From a virus, in the IMG/VR virus record IMGVR_UViG_3300027847_001471, positions 1 to 32,869 of that record: 32,869 nt of DNA; one strand, given 5' to 3'. Positions within the stretch are counted from its first letter, which is position 1; every line of letters starts with the position of its first letter. The position numbers and the translations under genes are program-made. This document shows, piece after piece, positions 3,428-31,428 of the stretch. Under the pieces are notes generated by a model. The model searched no databases. It was not told where the DNA came from and saw only the letters and a program-made list of their open reading frames with translations.

Positions 3428-3547
3428 CTCGCCCCTGGTCTGGGTGGGAATCTCCCCACACCCAGACAGTACAAAACGACGCGCAGCGCGTCAACAGTAA
3501 AGCACCCGCAGCGCGTAAAACACGCCAGCAGTCTAGCGGTTAGGCGC
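3422..3547 (-). repeat. Duplicated promoter-leader block, copy A
   Basis: About 125 bases here are highly similar to 5304-5428. Shared, in transcription order: a CGCCTAACCGCTAGACTG segment, operator(s), the -35/-10 promoter, a leader hairpin (GTCTGGGT ... ACCCAGAC) and CCAGG(G/A)GCGAG-ATGATG. The hairpin arms are identical in the two copies while the loops differ, as expected if structure is kept. Confidence 0.85.
3466..3494 (-). promoter_or_regulatory. Promoter A with palindromic operator
   Basis: On the minus strand: -35 TTGACG (3494-3489), 17-base spacer, -10 TACTGT (3471-3466). The perfect 15-base palindrome GACGCGCAGCGCGTC (3478-3492) covers the -35 and most of the spacer, a typical repressor position. 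A second, 13/15 match lies at 3503-3517. Confidence 0.82.
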
Positions 3548-4983: not shown

Positions 4984-5028
4984 CGTGCCGCCCCTCGCCG
5001 CCCCAGCGGCTGTAACTTGCACCTGAAA

Positions 5029-5056
5029 AGCCCGCTCAGGCAGTGCCTGGCGGGCT
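5029..5056 (-). terminator. Repeated hairpin element, copy 5
   Basis: Same stem and core as the other copies, with the longest T run of the set (TTTT, then CAGG) on the minus strand. It sits between the 76-aa gene ending at 5079 and the SprT-like gene starting at 4983, and so may reduce SprT expression from promoter B. Confidence 0.75.
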
Positions 5057-5078
5057 GGTGGGGTTGTGGTGGGTGCGG

Positions 5079-5309: not shown

Positions 5310-5428
5310 CTCGCTCCTGGTCTGGGTGGGATCCTCCCCACACCCAGACAGTACAAAACGACGCGCAGCGTGTAAACGTCTTTGACGCGCTGCGCGTAAA
5401 ATACCGCGACAGTCTAGCGGTTAGGCGC
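5304..5428 (-). repeat. Duplicated promoter-leader block, copy B
   Basis: Partner of 3422-3547. The leader hairpin arms (GTCTGGGT/ACCCAGAC), -10 box and double ATG are conserved; the operator region differs, with a mutated first operator and a second, inverted one. Confidence 0.85.
5348..5398 (-). promoter_or_regulatory. Promoter B with two operator-like palindromes
   Basis: On the minus strand: -35 TTTACA (5376-5371), 17-base spacer, -10 TACTGT (5353-5348). Operator-like GACGCGCAGCGTGTA lies at 5360-5374 over the spacer and -35, and GACGCGCTGCGCGTA at 5384-5398 just upstream. The second site could support cooperative binding. Confidence 0.8.
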
Positions 5429-5432
5429 GGCG

Positions 5433-5702
5433 CTAAGCCTCGCCCCAGGGCGGCACCAGCACGATCCACGTGCGCGCGGGAAACCAACCAAACAATCCGA
5501 CCAATTGGGTTGTTGGGATTGTTTGGTTGGTTTCCCGCACGTGAAGCGGCGCCACTTCAGGGTGCGGCGTGCGCGCGGGATCGTCGGGGTCGTCGCCCTC
5601 CACGATGGTCACCACGTCGCCGCGCTGGCCGCGCAGCACCACCTCTGCAACCACGTCATGCAGCGGCGCGCGCACCTCGCGCCACTCGTCGCCCTGGCTC
5701 AC
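5433..5702 (-). CDS. Last gene of the late transcript, unknown function
   Basis: An 89-aa protein with an acidic middle (EGDDPDDPARTPHPE) and an aromatic, hydrophobic end (LVGLFGWFPARTWIVLVPPW). GTG at 5702 overlaps the stop of the preceding gene (GTGA). Codons for residues about 54-77 are made of a large inverted repeat (5476-5538), and this stretch is visibly less GC-rich than the genome. The unusual composition suggests an insertion or a structural RNA constraint. No family recognised; a role in lysis or regulation would be guesswork. Confidence 0.55.
   Translation of the reverse strand: MSQGDEWREVRAPLHDVVAEVVLRGQRGDVVTIVEGDDPDDPARTPHPEVAPLHVRETNQTIPTTQLVGLFGWFPARTWIVLVPPWGEA
5467..5543. 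repeat. Long inverted repeat (23-bp arms) inside a coding region
   Basis: Arms 5476-5498 and 5516-5538 are perfect reverse complements of 23 bases around a 17-base loop. The loop contains the palindrome CCAATTGG. Each arm is bordered outside by a CACGTG palindrome (5467-5472 and 5538-5543). There is no U tract on either strand, so it is not a standard terminator. Confidence 0.9.
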
Positions 5703-9457: not shown

Positions 9458-12159
9458 CAGACCAGCTCCGATCCGGTGTCGTTGTGGACATAGGCGGCCT
9501 GCCTGGTGGTGCAGCTCGCCAGCACCGGGTATGTGATCACCGTCGAGGTGTCCACCCAGGCAGGCAGCGCAGCGGTAAACGTGACCAGGCGCGGGTTGGC
9601 GTCGGTGATATCAGCCAGCGCCTGGATCGTGGCCTCTGCACTCTTCGGCGTGGTGGCGTCTTGCTCGTCGCCGGGTGTGTGCAGCAGCACCACGTCAGCC
9701 ACCACCAGGCGATCCAGCACGTCGAACAGGTTGTCGACCGTGACCGTGGTGGTGCTGTCCACCGAGCTGATCCCCACGCTCGGGCACAGCGGGCCCGCCG
9801 CCAGCATATTGCCGGCCAGCAGCAGCGTCAGCGTTTGCGTGCCGCTGTACAGATCAGCTGACCAGCCCAGGCAGCGCGCGCCCACAGAGGCCGGCGCACG
9901 CGCGGCGGTCTTAAAGTCATACGTGACCGGGTGCGCCATGGTCAGGTTGACGAGATCGCCCGGCTGCACCTCGACCCACGGGCCCACTTGGATCGTCAAG
10001 ATGCTCTCACCGTTGCCGCGTCGCATAATCGCCACAGCCAGCTGGCGCGCCTCATCCAGCGCCATGCCTGGCGCCTTGTAGCCGGCGGTGTGCGGGCCCT
10101 CCACTTGAATGCGCGGCACGTCGTTGACGGTCAGGCTCACAGGGTCGCTCATCAGCTCTGTCTGCGTTTCTACCGTGATCGCGTTGGGCGACTCGGCGGG
10201 CTCTGGCGCGCCGACAGCCTCCAGCACCGCCTCACCTATCGAGATGGTGACCGCAGCAGCGTCTGCCACGCCCACGTCGATCGGCACGGCCGCCAGGTTA
10301 ACGTCACCCGTGGTCGCCGCGCCCGGCGCCTGCACGTCTGGGTGCGTCATGCGCTGCACCAGGCACAGCCCGCGCAGCGCCAGGTGCCCGCCCAGCAGAT
10401 CCGCGATGGACGCAGCGCCGGCGCTGAATAGATGCATCACGTGGCCCGCCAGGCCCGCAGCGCTCAGGCTGTTGGCGTCGATCAGCGAGTCGTCAACGCC
10501 GGCGCCCTGGCCCAGCGCCAGCGTGTCATACGATCCGCGATTGCCCGATCCGCTCGACTCCAACAGCGTCAGCAGCACCTCGGCCACGCTGCCAGACTTG
10601 CCGGTGATATAGCCCACCGTCGCGCCGGTGTTCCAAAAGATGAACCCGCCAGCGACGTGGACCACAGACACCCGCAGCAGCACCAGGCTGGGCACGTCGA
10701 CGTTAGCAAAGGAGCCGTCGACCTTTGCGTCCCACTGGATCACGGCCTTGCCCTCGTCGCTCTCGATCACGCCGTAGCCGCTGCCGGGAAATTGCACGTC
10801 TGCCCACTCCTGGCCCTCGGTCTGCACCACCGGCAGCCAGAATCCTGGCAGCGTAGCCGGGTGGACAGACGGCATCCTGACCGGGATCCTGAACTCAAAG
10901 AAGGCGTCGTTGATCGTGTAGCCGCCGCCGCCCGTGCTCGCGTTGTATTGCGGCTGGTAGATCCCAGGCCGCAGAAAATACGGCCCACCGGCAGGCACGT
11001 GGATGAACGACTGCGACGAGCTGAGCGCGGTGCTGTACGTCATGAACCGCAGCGAAATATAAGGCAGGCCGGCCACGCCACCGGCGCCAGGCAGCGGCGC
11101 AGGCAGCGCCCCCCAGCGCACACCGTCGCCCACATTGAGCGCGTCGCTGACGCTGCTGGCGTCCACGGTGGACCAGATCGGATCCGTGACGCTGCTGCTG
11201 TAGGCGTCCACCATGCAGGCGTGCGCGATCTGCCCCAGAGTGAACACGCCATCAGGGTGCGACGGCTTGACCGTGCACGTGCCAGACACCGTGGCGCTGC
11301 TGGCCCAAACCCAGTTGAACAGCACCGAGCCGGGCGCGGCGTACACCGGCAGGCCCGCGATGGCCTCGGGCGCATAGTCGGGTTCGGGCCCGGCCTCGTA
11401 GCAGACGGCCTCAACGTCATGGCCGATCGGCTGCGCGGCTTTGCGGATCAGCGGCAGGCACCGCAGCACCATGCCGGGCCCCGTCGGCCTGGGTGGCGAG
11501 TCAACATAGCCACGCCAGATCACCCGACAGTGCTTGGCCAGCGTGCCGGTGTCACACCATTCATCATTGAGCACGCGCCCGTCGGGGCTGACGAGGTGCC
11601 GCCACAGCGTGACGTGTCGCCCACGCCAGGTCACCGGCTTGTCTGTCACGTGTTTCATGGTCGGGCTTTGCCGCTTATACGTGCCCGCCATGCTGCCGGC
11701 CAGGCCGCGCGTGGTGAGGTCGACATGGGTGCCGTCCACCACGGTCAGGGCCACGCGCTCGGTGCCGATCCATGCGTTCGCCGCTGACCAGCCGGTGGTG
11801 TCTGTGACCAGCACCGAGCCCGTGCCCGTGCCCACGTCCTCGTCCAGCATCATGGACGCGCCCGGCAGGCTGAACAGCGCAGAGGTCAGCGCGTTGTCTT
11901 CGAGGCCCTGCCAGGTCAGGGTCACGTCATAGGCTGCGCCGCTGGCCACGCCGCTCTGGCGGTCCACCTCGATCGCCACGCTGTCGCCCTCGCCCACCAG
12001 CAGGCACTCCACGGCTGACGTGTAGCCAGGCGGCAGGGTGGGCGTGCTCGTGGAGTCGACGCGCGGCGGCACCGCCTCACAGAATATGTGCGGGATGCCC
12101 TCGATCTGCACCACGTGGATCCAGCTGTAGCCAGAACGCACCAGGCCCTGCCAGCTCAT
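9457..12159 (-). CDS. Large tail-tip / tail hub protein
   Basis: A 900-aa protein, the second-largest open group after combining with the tape measure in this tail region. It opens with SWIHVVQIEGIPHIF, similar to the opening of many phage tail-hub proteins, and ends in a beta-rich region (PGDLVNLTMAHPVTYDF) reminiscent of hub domains. The middle (about 400-620) is Ser/Gly-rich. Its place after two medium-size tail proteins and before fibre-region genes fits the siphovirus tail-associated protein. ATG 12159 overlaps the upstream stop (ATGA). No enzyme motif is evident. Confidence 0.7.
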   Translation of the reverse strand: MSWQGLVRSGYSWIHVVQIEGIPHIFCEAVPPRVDSTSTPTLPPGYTSAVECLLVGEGDSVAIEVDRQSGVASGAAYDVTLTWQGLEDNALTSALFSLPGASMMLDEDVGTGTGSVLVTDTTGWSAANAWIGTERVALTVVDGTHVDLTTRGLAGSMAGTYKRQSPTMKHVTDKPVTWRGRHVTLWRHLVSPDGRVLNDEWCDTGTLAKHCRVIWRGYVDSPPRPTGPGMVLRCLPLIRKAAQPIGHDVEAVCYEAGPEPDYAPEAIAGLPVYAAPGSVLFNWVWASSATVSGTCTVKPSHPDGVFTLGQIAHACMVDAYSSSVTDPIWSTVDASSVSDALNVGDGVRWGALPAPLPGAGGVAGLPYISLRFMTYSTALSSSQSFIHVPAGGPYFLRPGIYQPQYNASTGGGGYTINDAFFEFRIPVRMPSVHPATLPGFWLPVVQTEGQEWADVQFPGSGYGVIESDEGKAVIQWDAKVDGSFANVDVPSLVLLRVSVVHVAGGFIFWNTGATVGYITGKSGSVAEVLLTLLESSGSGNRGSYDTLALGQGAGVDDSLIDANSLSAAGLAGHVMHLFSAGAASIADLLGGHLALRGLCLVQRMTHPDVQAPGAATTGDVNLAAVPIDVGVADAAAVTISIGEAVLEAVGAPEPAESPNAITVETQTELMSDPVSLTVNDVPRIQVEGPHTAGYKAPGMALDEARQLAVAIMRRGNGESILTIQVGPWVEVQPGDLVNLTMAHPVTYDFKTAARAPASVGARCLGWSADLYSGTQTLTLLLAGNMLAAGPLCPSVGISSVDSTTTVTVDNLFDVLDRLVVADVVLLHTPGDEQDATTPKSAEATIQALADITDANPRLVTFTAALPAWVDTSTVITYPVLASCTTRQAAYVHNDTGSELV

Positions 12160-29393: not shown

Positions 29394-30781
29394 CACGCCC
29401 CCCTCGGCGTCTCAAACGCCATGCGTGCGCCGTTCCATCGCACCTCACCCTCGACCACCGAAAACGGCGGCCCGTGCCTGAACTTGGGCACCGCGATGGA
29501 CGCGCGCTGCCGCTCCTCCTGAATGCGCATCCTCGCCGCGTCGCTGTTGGGCAGGATCTCTGGGCGCATGTTTGGGCGGTGCGGGATCAGCGCCACGTCA
29601 GCGTCAGCCGCGATGGCCTGGCTGCCCCTGGCGTCGCTCAGCTTGAGCGCCGAGCCGTCGCCGCGCGCCGCCGCGCTGGTGGGCTGGCTCAGCGCGATGG
29701 CCGCGCAGTCATACTCGATGGCGCAGCTCTTCATCATGCGCGAGGCCGCCGCGATCTCGGCCTCGTCGGTGGCGTCGCGCCGCCTGGTGCCGCCACGGCA
29801 CAGCTGGAGATAGTCCAGCACGATGAGCCCCAGGCCGCCCGCGCACTCGTGCTGCACCCGCTGACAGCTCAGGCGCAGGGCCTCGGGCGTCAGGGTGTGC
29901 GCGTGCTCGATGTGCAGCTGCCAGTGCGCGGTGTCGTCGAGCGCCTTGGTGTACGCTGACAGGTCGCGCCGGCTCAGGTTCTGCAGCCCGCGCCGCGCGA
30001 CATTGAACGGCACCGCCGACAGCTGGCTGATGAGCCTGCCGCACAGGTCAGCCGCTGACATCTCCAGGCTGATGAACAGCACCGCGCGCCCGGCCTGCAG
30101 AGCACTCAGCGTGTAGCTCAGGGCCAGGCTGGTCTTGCCCACGCCGGGCGCAGCCAGGATCACCGCCAGCCAGCCGGGCTGTATCGTCATGCGCTCGTCG
30201 AGCGCCGCCACGCCAGAGCGCACGCCGCCCCCCTCGGCCTCACCCTCCAGGCACCGCCGGTGGTGTTCGTCAAAGCCGCTGCGCGCATCCTCGGCCGTCG
30301 TTGGCACCAGCACCTCGGTCGCTTGGCGCACGGCGCGCTCAGCCACCGCCGGCAGCTCTGTGGGCTCGTTGTCGGTGTCATAGGCCAGCGCCTCCAGGCG
30401 ATGCGCTGCCGCGATCAGCTCGCGCCGCCCACGGTACTGCCTGACGATCAGCGCGTAGGCGTCCACGTTGCCGCTGGTGCCCGCGCGGTCGAGCACCTCG
30501 CTGAGCCCTCGAAAACCCACCATGTCCCAGGTGCTCGCCTGCTGCAGGTACGCAATGATCAGCGCCTCGTCACAGGTGCCGTGCGCCTCATAGGATCGCA
30601 CCACCGCTTCCCAGATCGCGCGGTGGCGCGGCACATAGAAGTCGGCGCCCTCCAGCGCTGTGGCCAAGTGCAGGCACGCCTCCGGCGCCACTATAGCCGC
30701 CGCTATCACCTCGCGCTCTGTGGCCACGTCATGGGGCGCGCGCAGCTCGGTGCCGTCCACCACCGCCAGGCCCCCGCTCAC
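29393..30781 (-). CDS. dnaB: DnaB-family replicative helicase
   Basis: A 462-aa protein. The N-terminal domain (about 15-115) is helical and DnaB-N-like. The RecA-type motor has Walker A ILAAPGVGKTS (208-218), SLEMS (238-242), Walker B LIVLDYLQL (319-327), and ALSQP (363-367). It moves 5'-3' on single strands and unwinds the fork. GTG 30781 overlaps the initiator's stop (GTGA), so initiator and helicase are coupled, as in phages where the initiator loads the helicase. No separate loader gene is seen. Length is normal for phage DnaB proteins. Confidence 0.92.
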   Translation of the reverse strand: MSGGLAVVDGTELRAPHDVATEREVIAAAIVAPEACLHLATALEGADFYVPRHRAIWEAVVRSYEAHGTCDEALIIAYLQQASTWDMVGFRGLSEVLDRAGTSGNVDAYALIVRQYRGRRELIAAAHRLEALAYDTDNEPTELPAVAERAVRQATEVLVPTTAEDARSGFDEHHRRCLEGEAEGGGVRSGVAALDERMTIQPGWLAVILAAPGVGKTSLALSYTLSALQAGRAVLFISLEMSAADLCGRLISQLSAVPFNVARRGLQNLSRRDLSAYTKALDDTAHWQLHIEHAHTLTPEALRLSCQRVQHECAGGLGLIVLDYLQLCRGGTRRRDATDEAEIAAASRMMKSCAIEYDCAAIALSQPTSAAARGDGSALKLSDARGSQAIAADADVALIPHRPNMRPEILPNSDAARMRIQEERQRASIAVPKFRHGPPFSVVEGEVRWNGARMAFETPRGA

Positions 30782-31428
30782 GTCAGGCCCCGCTCTGCGC
30801 GCATCGCTGCGCGTTTCTTGGCCAGGGCTGTCACCTGTGCCCGTTGCTCATCCGAAAAAGAAGAAAAAGAAGGCCTCGCCTCGCGCGCGTCAGCGGGCGT
30901 CTGCGCACCCGCACGTGAGGGCGTCGTCAGGCTCTCCTCTTCTCTTCTCTTCTCTTCTCTTCTCTTCTCTCGCGAGTGCGTGAGGGCTAGCGCATCGCTA
31001 GCAGGCTGATAGCACGTTGCTAGCGCATCGCTAGCGCCGGGCGACTGCTCGCCATCTGTGCCCGCCTGCGCGGGCGGATCCTGGCCGGCGGCGGCCCCTG
31101 CTAGCGCATCGCTAGCAGGCTGATAGCACGTTGCTAGCGCATCGCTAGCAGGCTCGATCCAGGCCACCCAGCCACCCGCCAGCAGCGGCTCCAGGTCCAC
31201 CGCATCGGTCGCCCCGATCTGCCTCGCCAGCCAAGCAGGGTCAGCCGGGATCCGGTTGTCTGTGCGCGCGGCCACCAGCCACAGACCTATCAGGTGCGCC
31301 TTGCTCGCGTCGGGCAGCTGCGCCCACTCGTAATTGCTCAGCAGCGTGCGGTGGAGTTTGATCCACGTGGGATCGCGGTCCTTGTAATGCTGCAGGTTCG
31401 CCCAATTGGGCACGCTCAAATAGTGCAC
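30778..31428 (-). CDS. Replication initiator, lambda O-like, with iterons in its gene
   Basis: A 216-aa protein. Residues 1-90 (LSVPNWANLQHYKDRDPTWIK; then LPDASKAHLIGLWLVAARTD) match the N-terminal winged-helix domain of phage initiators. Residues about 93-150 are a linker with two ASDALATCYQPASDALA copies, encoded by a 50-base DNA repeat. Then a charged REKRREEKRREEE stretch encoded by a pentanucleotide repeat leads to a short helical C-terminus that may contact the helicase. GTG 31428 has GGAGG six bases upstream. By analogy to lambda O, the gene would contain the origin. Confidence 0.78.
   Translation of the reverse strand: MHYLSVPNWANLQHYKDRDPTWIKLHRTLLSNYEWAQLPDASKAHLIGLWLVAARTDNRIPADPAWLARQIGATDAVDLEPLLAGGWVAWIEPASDALATCYQPASDALAGAAAGQDPPAQAGTDGEQSPGASDALATCYQPASDALALTHSREKRREEKRREEESLTTPSRAGAQTPADAREARPSFSSFSDEQRAQVTALAKKRAAMRAERGLT
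30938..30967 (-). repeat. Six tandem copies of a pentanucleotide (TCTTC / GAAGA)
   Basis: On the plus strand TCTTC is repeated six times without error, with partial units at both sides. The coding strand is pure purine here, and lies next to the iterons on their helicase-gene side. The unit length is not a multiple of three, so each gain or loss would shift the frame of the initiator gene. Confidence 0.95.
30986..31149. repeat. Iteron array, candidate replication origin
   Basis: GCTAGCGCATCGCTAGC, itself an inverted repeat with a 3-base centre, occurs four times: 30986-31002, 31019-31035, 31100-31116 and 31133-31149. Pairs are 33 bases apart and embedded in two identical 50-base blocks. A second palindrome (TAGCA-CGT-TGCTA) lies between the members of each pair. 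An array of initiator-sized sites inside the initiator gene beside an asymmetric purine tract has the same layout as the lambda origin in gene O. Confidence 0.82.

Follow-up and report, generated by a model that had tools for sequence, protein, structure and literature searches.

A 99-bp in-frame insertion carrying a perfect 23-bp inverted repeat in a small late gene of a phage, probably the product of a foldback event

A perfect inverted repeat with 23-bp arms lies within a protein-coding gene of an uncultured phage, and the question it raises is whether such a structure is a conserved signal or a piece of DNA that the gene has recently acquired. The window, i.e. the whole stretch of DNA analysed here, corresponds to one IMG/VR virus record, 32,869 bp long and with a G+C content of about 69%.

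The palindrome and the gene that contains it

The arms found in the inverted-repeat scan occupy positions 5476-5498 (GCGGGAAACCAACCAAACAATCC) and 5516-5538 and are 100% complementary. The 17-nt loop between them (5499-5515) contains a palindrome of its own, CCAATTGG, at 5501-5508. The arms are less GC-rich than the window (52% vs. about 69%), and the motif CACGTG stands on both sides, at 5467-5472 and at 5538-5543. The right-hand copy lies within the insert described below, at the outer end of the second arm. In the left-hand copy, read on the gene strand, CACG is part of a direct repeat and TG is original gene sequence. When four extra nucleotides (CGCG) are bulged out of the left arm, base pairing runs on into the CACGTG copy at either side. 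In its perfect arms, their base composition, its loop and its CACGTG borders, and in its position within coding sequence, the palindrome is as the earlier note on this DNA had described it.

Elsewhere in the window, perfect short-loop inverted repeats reach no more than 11 bp, and the longest in eight dinucleotide shuffles are 10-13 bp. Moreover, the gene-strand RNA, folded over a 131-nt stretch, reaches -79.8 kcal/mol, compared with -47.7 ± 3.8 in shuffles (z = -8.55, or about 8.6 S.D. under the shuffles). Therefore, the 23-bp inverted repeat is real and far above chance. A second, weaker hairpin may be read in the sequence of the insert at 5535-5567 (minus strand; CCGCAC..GAAGTGGC/GCCGCTTC..GTGCGG), and competes with the outer end of the large one.

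The whole palindrome falls inside the minus-strand ORF 5433-5702, which encodes a small late protein of 89 residues; in the mRNA, the end of the stem is 39 nt ahead of the stop codon. No PHROGs or Pfam family matched the gene product. The upstream genes are those of a small tailed phage, comprising terminase, portal and long tail genes and a CHAP-like endolysin candidate, whose CHAP match is under Pfam's cut-off. A 124-nt gap with promoter-like dyads follows the ORF. The gene order and this gap fit the previous description of the gene as the last of a long transcript, and from its setting it appears to be the last late gene, although the transcript ends themselves are not readable from sequence.

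Repeated promoter/operator-like dyads (TGACGCGCTGCGCGTCGTTTTGTACTG and variants) are seen upstream of early small genes at 3477-3538 and 5350-5400 (minus strand), and similar dyads occur at the same place (10560-10640) in L003, a contig from a related phage. They are probably regulator-binding sites. After the small early genes there is also a terminator-like hairpin, CCCACCA..CCCACCAGCCCGCCAGGC...GCGGGCTTT, at 5020-5060 of the window (minus strand) and, in similar form, at 10940-11000 of L003.

The 99-bp insert and its empty site

Contigs from relatives were obtained by searching with the endolysin candidate. In L003, a syntenic contig belonging to a record of 32,551 bp, an ortholog of the host gene sits among the same neighbours, and L007 carries a more distant homolog; the protein identities of the two to the window's gene are 55% and 32%. 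Additional searches found no relatives carrying the gene beyond these two, and tblastn against phages, with the gene product and the endolysin candidate as queries, gave no match.

In both relatives, 33 residues are missing at one and the same point. The ortholog in L003 has the C-terminus ...VTIVEG-DPDDPNRTFLVLVPEWGSA (also written ...LVTIVEGDPDDPNRTFLVLVPEWGSA), the homolog in L007 is likewise short, and the protein of the window reads ...VVTIVEGDDPDDPART-[PHPEVAPLHVRETNQTIPTTQLVGLFGWFPART]-WIVLVPPWGEA. In the DNA, two exact copies of a 13-bp direct repeat (CGTGCGCGCGGGA), at 5469-5481 and 5568-5580, are spaced exactly 99 bp, or 33 codons, apart. The extra segment (5482-5580, minus strand) consists of 86 bp of unique sequence and one copy of the repeat, and its boundary may slide by up to 13 bp. 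It comprises exactly 33 codons with no stops, has an open frame on both strands (the one in use and its counterpart on the opposite strand), and has a G+C content of 58.6%, compared with about 69% in the window. When one unit is deleted, the protein of the window ends in ...VTIVEGDDPDDPARTWIVLVPPWGEA and gives ...DPDDPARTWIVLVPPWGEA, which matches ...DPDDPNRTFLVLVPEWGSA of L003, and the DNA aligns with that of L003 with a sole 3-nt gap near the site.

Because the 33 residues are absent in the relatives, the 13-bp repeat is present, and removal of one unit restores the alignment, the palindrome is, as judged from this comparison, the core of a larger, stop-free, in-frame insertion of 99 bp. That the palindrome sits in a larger insertion is new beyond the earlier observation. 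A target duplication of 6 bp (CACGTG) was rejected as a description of the same site; it makes the insert 71 bp long and leaves the gene out of frame, for which reason the 13-bp/99-bp reading is the better one. With the gene present in no more than two relatives (55% and 32% identity), the insertion would be dated only to after the split from L003. A structure prediction of low confidence (mean pLDDT 62) hints that the 33 added residues fall between two predicted strands, lengthening that region.

The earlier note had offered a recent foldback insertion as one of several possibilities and had proposed to see whether related phages have the gene without the repeat. The genes of L003 and L007 do lack the hairpin insert, and the missing 33-residue stretch with its flanking direct repeat lends support to that suggestion. 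It had also considered that the same protein sequence, conserved in relatives with no palindrome, would speak for a protein-level feature; the peptide itself is absent from the relatives.

Since the nearest relatives are without the insert, a single foldback insertion seems more likely than a conserved signal. A selected RNA or DNA signal, acting as a late-mRNA 3'-end stabiliser, an RNase III site or a protein-binding cruciform, would accord with the perfect arms, with the very stable fold given above, and with the position of the hairpin shortly before the stop codon of the apparent last late gene. However, no hairpin of such size is present within or downstream of the gene in the syntenic relative, the hairpin would be melted by translating ribosomes, and no T-run terminator follows it on the gene strand. 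As nothing comparable to this inverted repeat occurs at that place in the relatives, a conserved role as a transcript end, packaging site or binding site is unlikely, and a selected signal of any of these kinds is given a low probability. The binding-site, packaging or recombination-site and stabiliser roles listed in the earlier note thus gain no support, copies of the motif likewise not having been found, while its statement that the position is not that of a normal terminator holds.

Known classes of structured element were also rejected. An intrinsic terminator is not indicated, as the hairpin is inside the ORF with no U-run or terminator-like site on the minus strand. No Rfam family reached its gathering score, the sole matches being to microRNA hairpins, below threshold and ascribable to chance, and no tRNA was found.

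Origin of the insert

The moderately favoured explanation is a recent, lineage-specific 99-bp in-frame foldback insertion into the small late gene, probably by polymerase template switching; otherwise, the source may be an uncatalogued palindromic mini-element. In a template-switching event during replication, the growing strand would leave its template and copy about 70 nt from another source, would then snap back, copying the AT-richer arm onto itself, and would return to the gene through short homology (TCCCG...CACGTG). A return of this kind would explain both kinds of repeat, direct and inverted, and the 4-nt bulge at once. The insert has the near-perfect inverted repeat and the microhomology junction typical of template switching, and the pairing runs into original gene sequence, reaching the CACGTG of the original site 2 bp past the direct repeat, as a return by microhomology would give such reach. 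The insert would then have no selected signalling role and would be tolerated as a protein insertion. Because the palindrome lies between direct repeats, its precise loss should be favoured, and could take place by slippage between them.

Some points stand against this explanation. The window offers no donor for the roughly 70 nt of new sequence, its matches being at most 11 nt long, i.e. at chance level; the donor may lie beyond the DNA searched, as the record may be incomplete. Moreover, the 13-bp direct repeat and the complex insert fit a transposition-like event too; the repeat is a possible target-site duplication but may stem from microhomology instead. In reports on template-switch (quasipalindrome) mutation, the process is documented in coding genes, including those of yeast (PMC8604942), where multi-residue changes result (PMC8604942, PMC7202029). 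The phage insert resembles such mutations in its perfect arms and in rejoining at short homology, but in most known events an imperfect inverted repeat already present is homogenised, whereas here about 70 nt are added and the template was not found.

The main rival is an uncatalogued mobile mini-element, similar to MITEs or to the Rickettsia palindromic elements (RPE), a copy of which would have moved in trans, duplicated its target and kept an open reading through host genes. The size of about 100 bp, the hairpin shape and the foreign base composition would suit such an element, as would the 13-bp flanking direct repeat, the insertion in frame, and the open frame on one strand with its counterpart on the other. 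RPEs themselves are palindromes of 100-150 bp within ORFs, which they do not break (PMC3767692, PMC10969869). Nevertheless, whatever boundary is chosen, inverted repeats at the ends of the insert do not exceed 3 bp, and no other copy was found. No second copy occurs in the window, and the records of three relatives yield only a single 14-nt match. Searches for the exact 21-nt arm sequence in 2.9 million IMG/VR contigs and 84,980 GTDB genomes found nothing, and a gapped pair of 13+13-nt arm pieces is likewise missing from IMG/VR. Arm pieces of 16 and 17 nt do match exactly in unrelated genomes, with no opposite arm nearby. In 50,697 phage records, 72,556 plasmids and E. coli genomes, the matches are at chance level or absent. 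Membership in a repeat family was accordingly rejected, there being no match above chance in any of these collections, although diverged copies could escape such searches. A mobile mini-element is hence regarded as possible but distinctly less probable than template switching. The narrower proposal that the insert represents the first member to be sampled of a family of protein-coding palindromes carried by phages, inserted in frame with duplications of about 13 bp and spread by an enzyme, is improbable.

In terms of effect, RPEs are the closest known analogue. The insert shares with the palindromic elements of Rickettsia and Wolbachia (RPE/WPE) a length of about 100 bp, a palindromic form, an in-frame position in a coding gene and absence from some orthologs. 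In contrast, those elements have many copies per genome (PMC10969869, PMC3767692), whereas the phage insert is known in one copy and has no sequence match to any family tested. Because the defining multi-copy character, related copies at unrelated sites, was looked for and not found, the insert is not filed as an RPE; it may be said to work like a protein-coding palindrome, with no membership in any repeat family being claimed. With prokaryotic MITEs it shares short length, inverted repeats and a flanking direct repeat, but its inverted repeat is internal rather than terminal, and no parent transposase or second copy was found. It resembles an integron attC site in its imperfect folded single-strand hairpin, but lacks the R''/R' core sites (RYYYAAC/GTTRRRY), and an attC site was rejected.

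In programmed translational bypass (T4 gene 60 and the yeast mitochondrial byp elements), a hairpin insert lies between repeated codons of a coding gene. The phage insert is likewise a hairpin between repeats in a coding gene, but is a multiple of three and stop-free, and ordinary translation would therefore need no bypass.

An assembly or amplification artefact, such as a chimeric fold-back read or an adapter, is very improbable. The insert is seen in one metagenomic contig only, and chimeric by-products of strand-displacement amplification are known (PMC9484634). However, the ortholog resumes in frame on both sides of an insert bounded by an exact 13-bp repeat, and an adapter would recur, whereas IMG/VR contains the exact arm in this contig alone.

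The window and L003 provide a clean pair of filled and empty sites, and show that a single hairpin insertion can add 33 codons to a late gene of a phage while its frame is kept. Taken as a single event, this is an instructive yet ordinary mutation. Recurrence of the hairpin in further phages would add viruses to Rickettsia and Wolbachia as carriers of these rare protein-coding palindromes.

Other repeats and gene order in the window

Elsewhere in the window, the gene 30778-31428 (minus strand) contains, at 30986-31150, a set of four palindromic repeats (GCTAGCGATGCGCTAGC) and, after them on the gene strand, a purine tract (GAGAAGAGAAG...); they adjoin a gene for a DnaB-like helicase. Similar repeats (GCTAGCACATCGCTAGC) with a TTCTCTCTCT tract occur at 1708-1820 in the ortholog of a relative (L089). 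The arrangement looks like a replication origin of the lambda-O type inside an initiator gene, the names helicase and initiator coming from a reading of the proteins rather than a family search. The initiator gene is at 31 kb in the window and at 4 kb in G001, the record that contains L003. Because the gene order is circularly permuted in this way, the comparison suggests that both contigs, of 32-33 kb, are near-complete, circularly mapping genomes.
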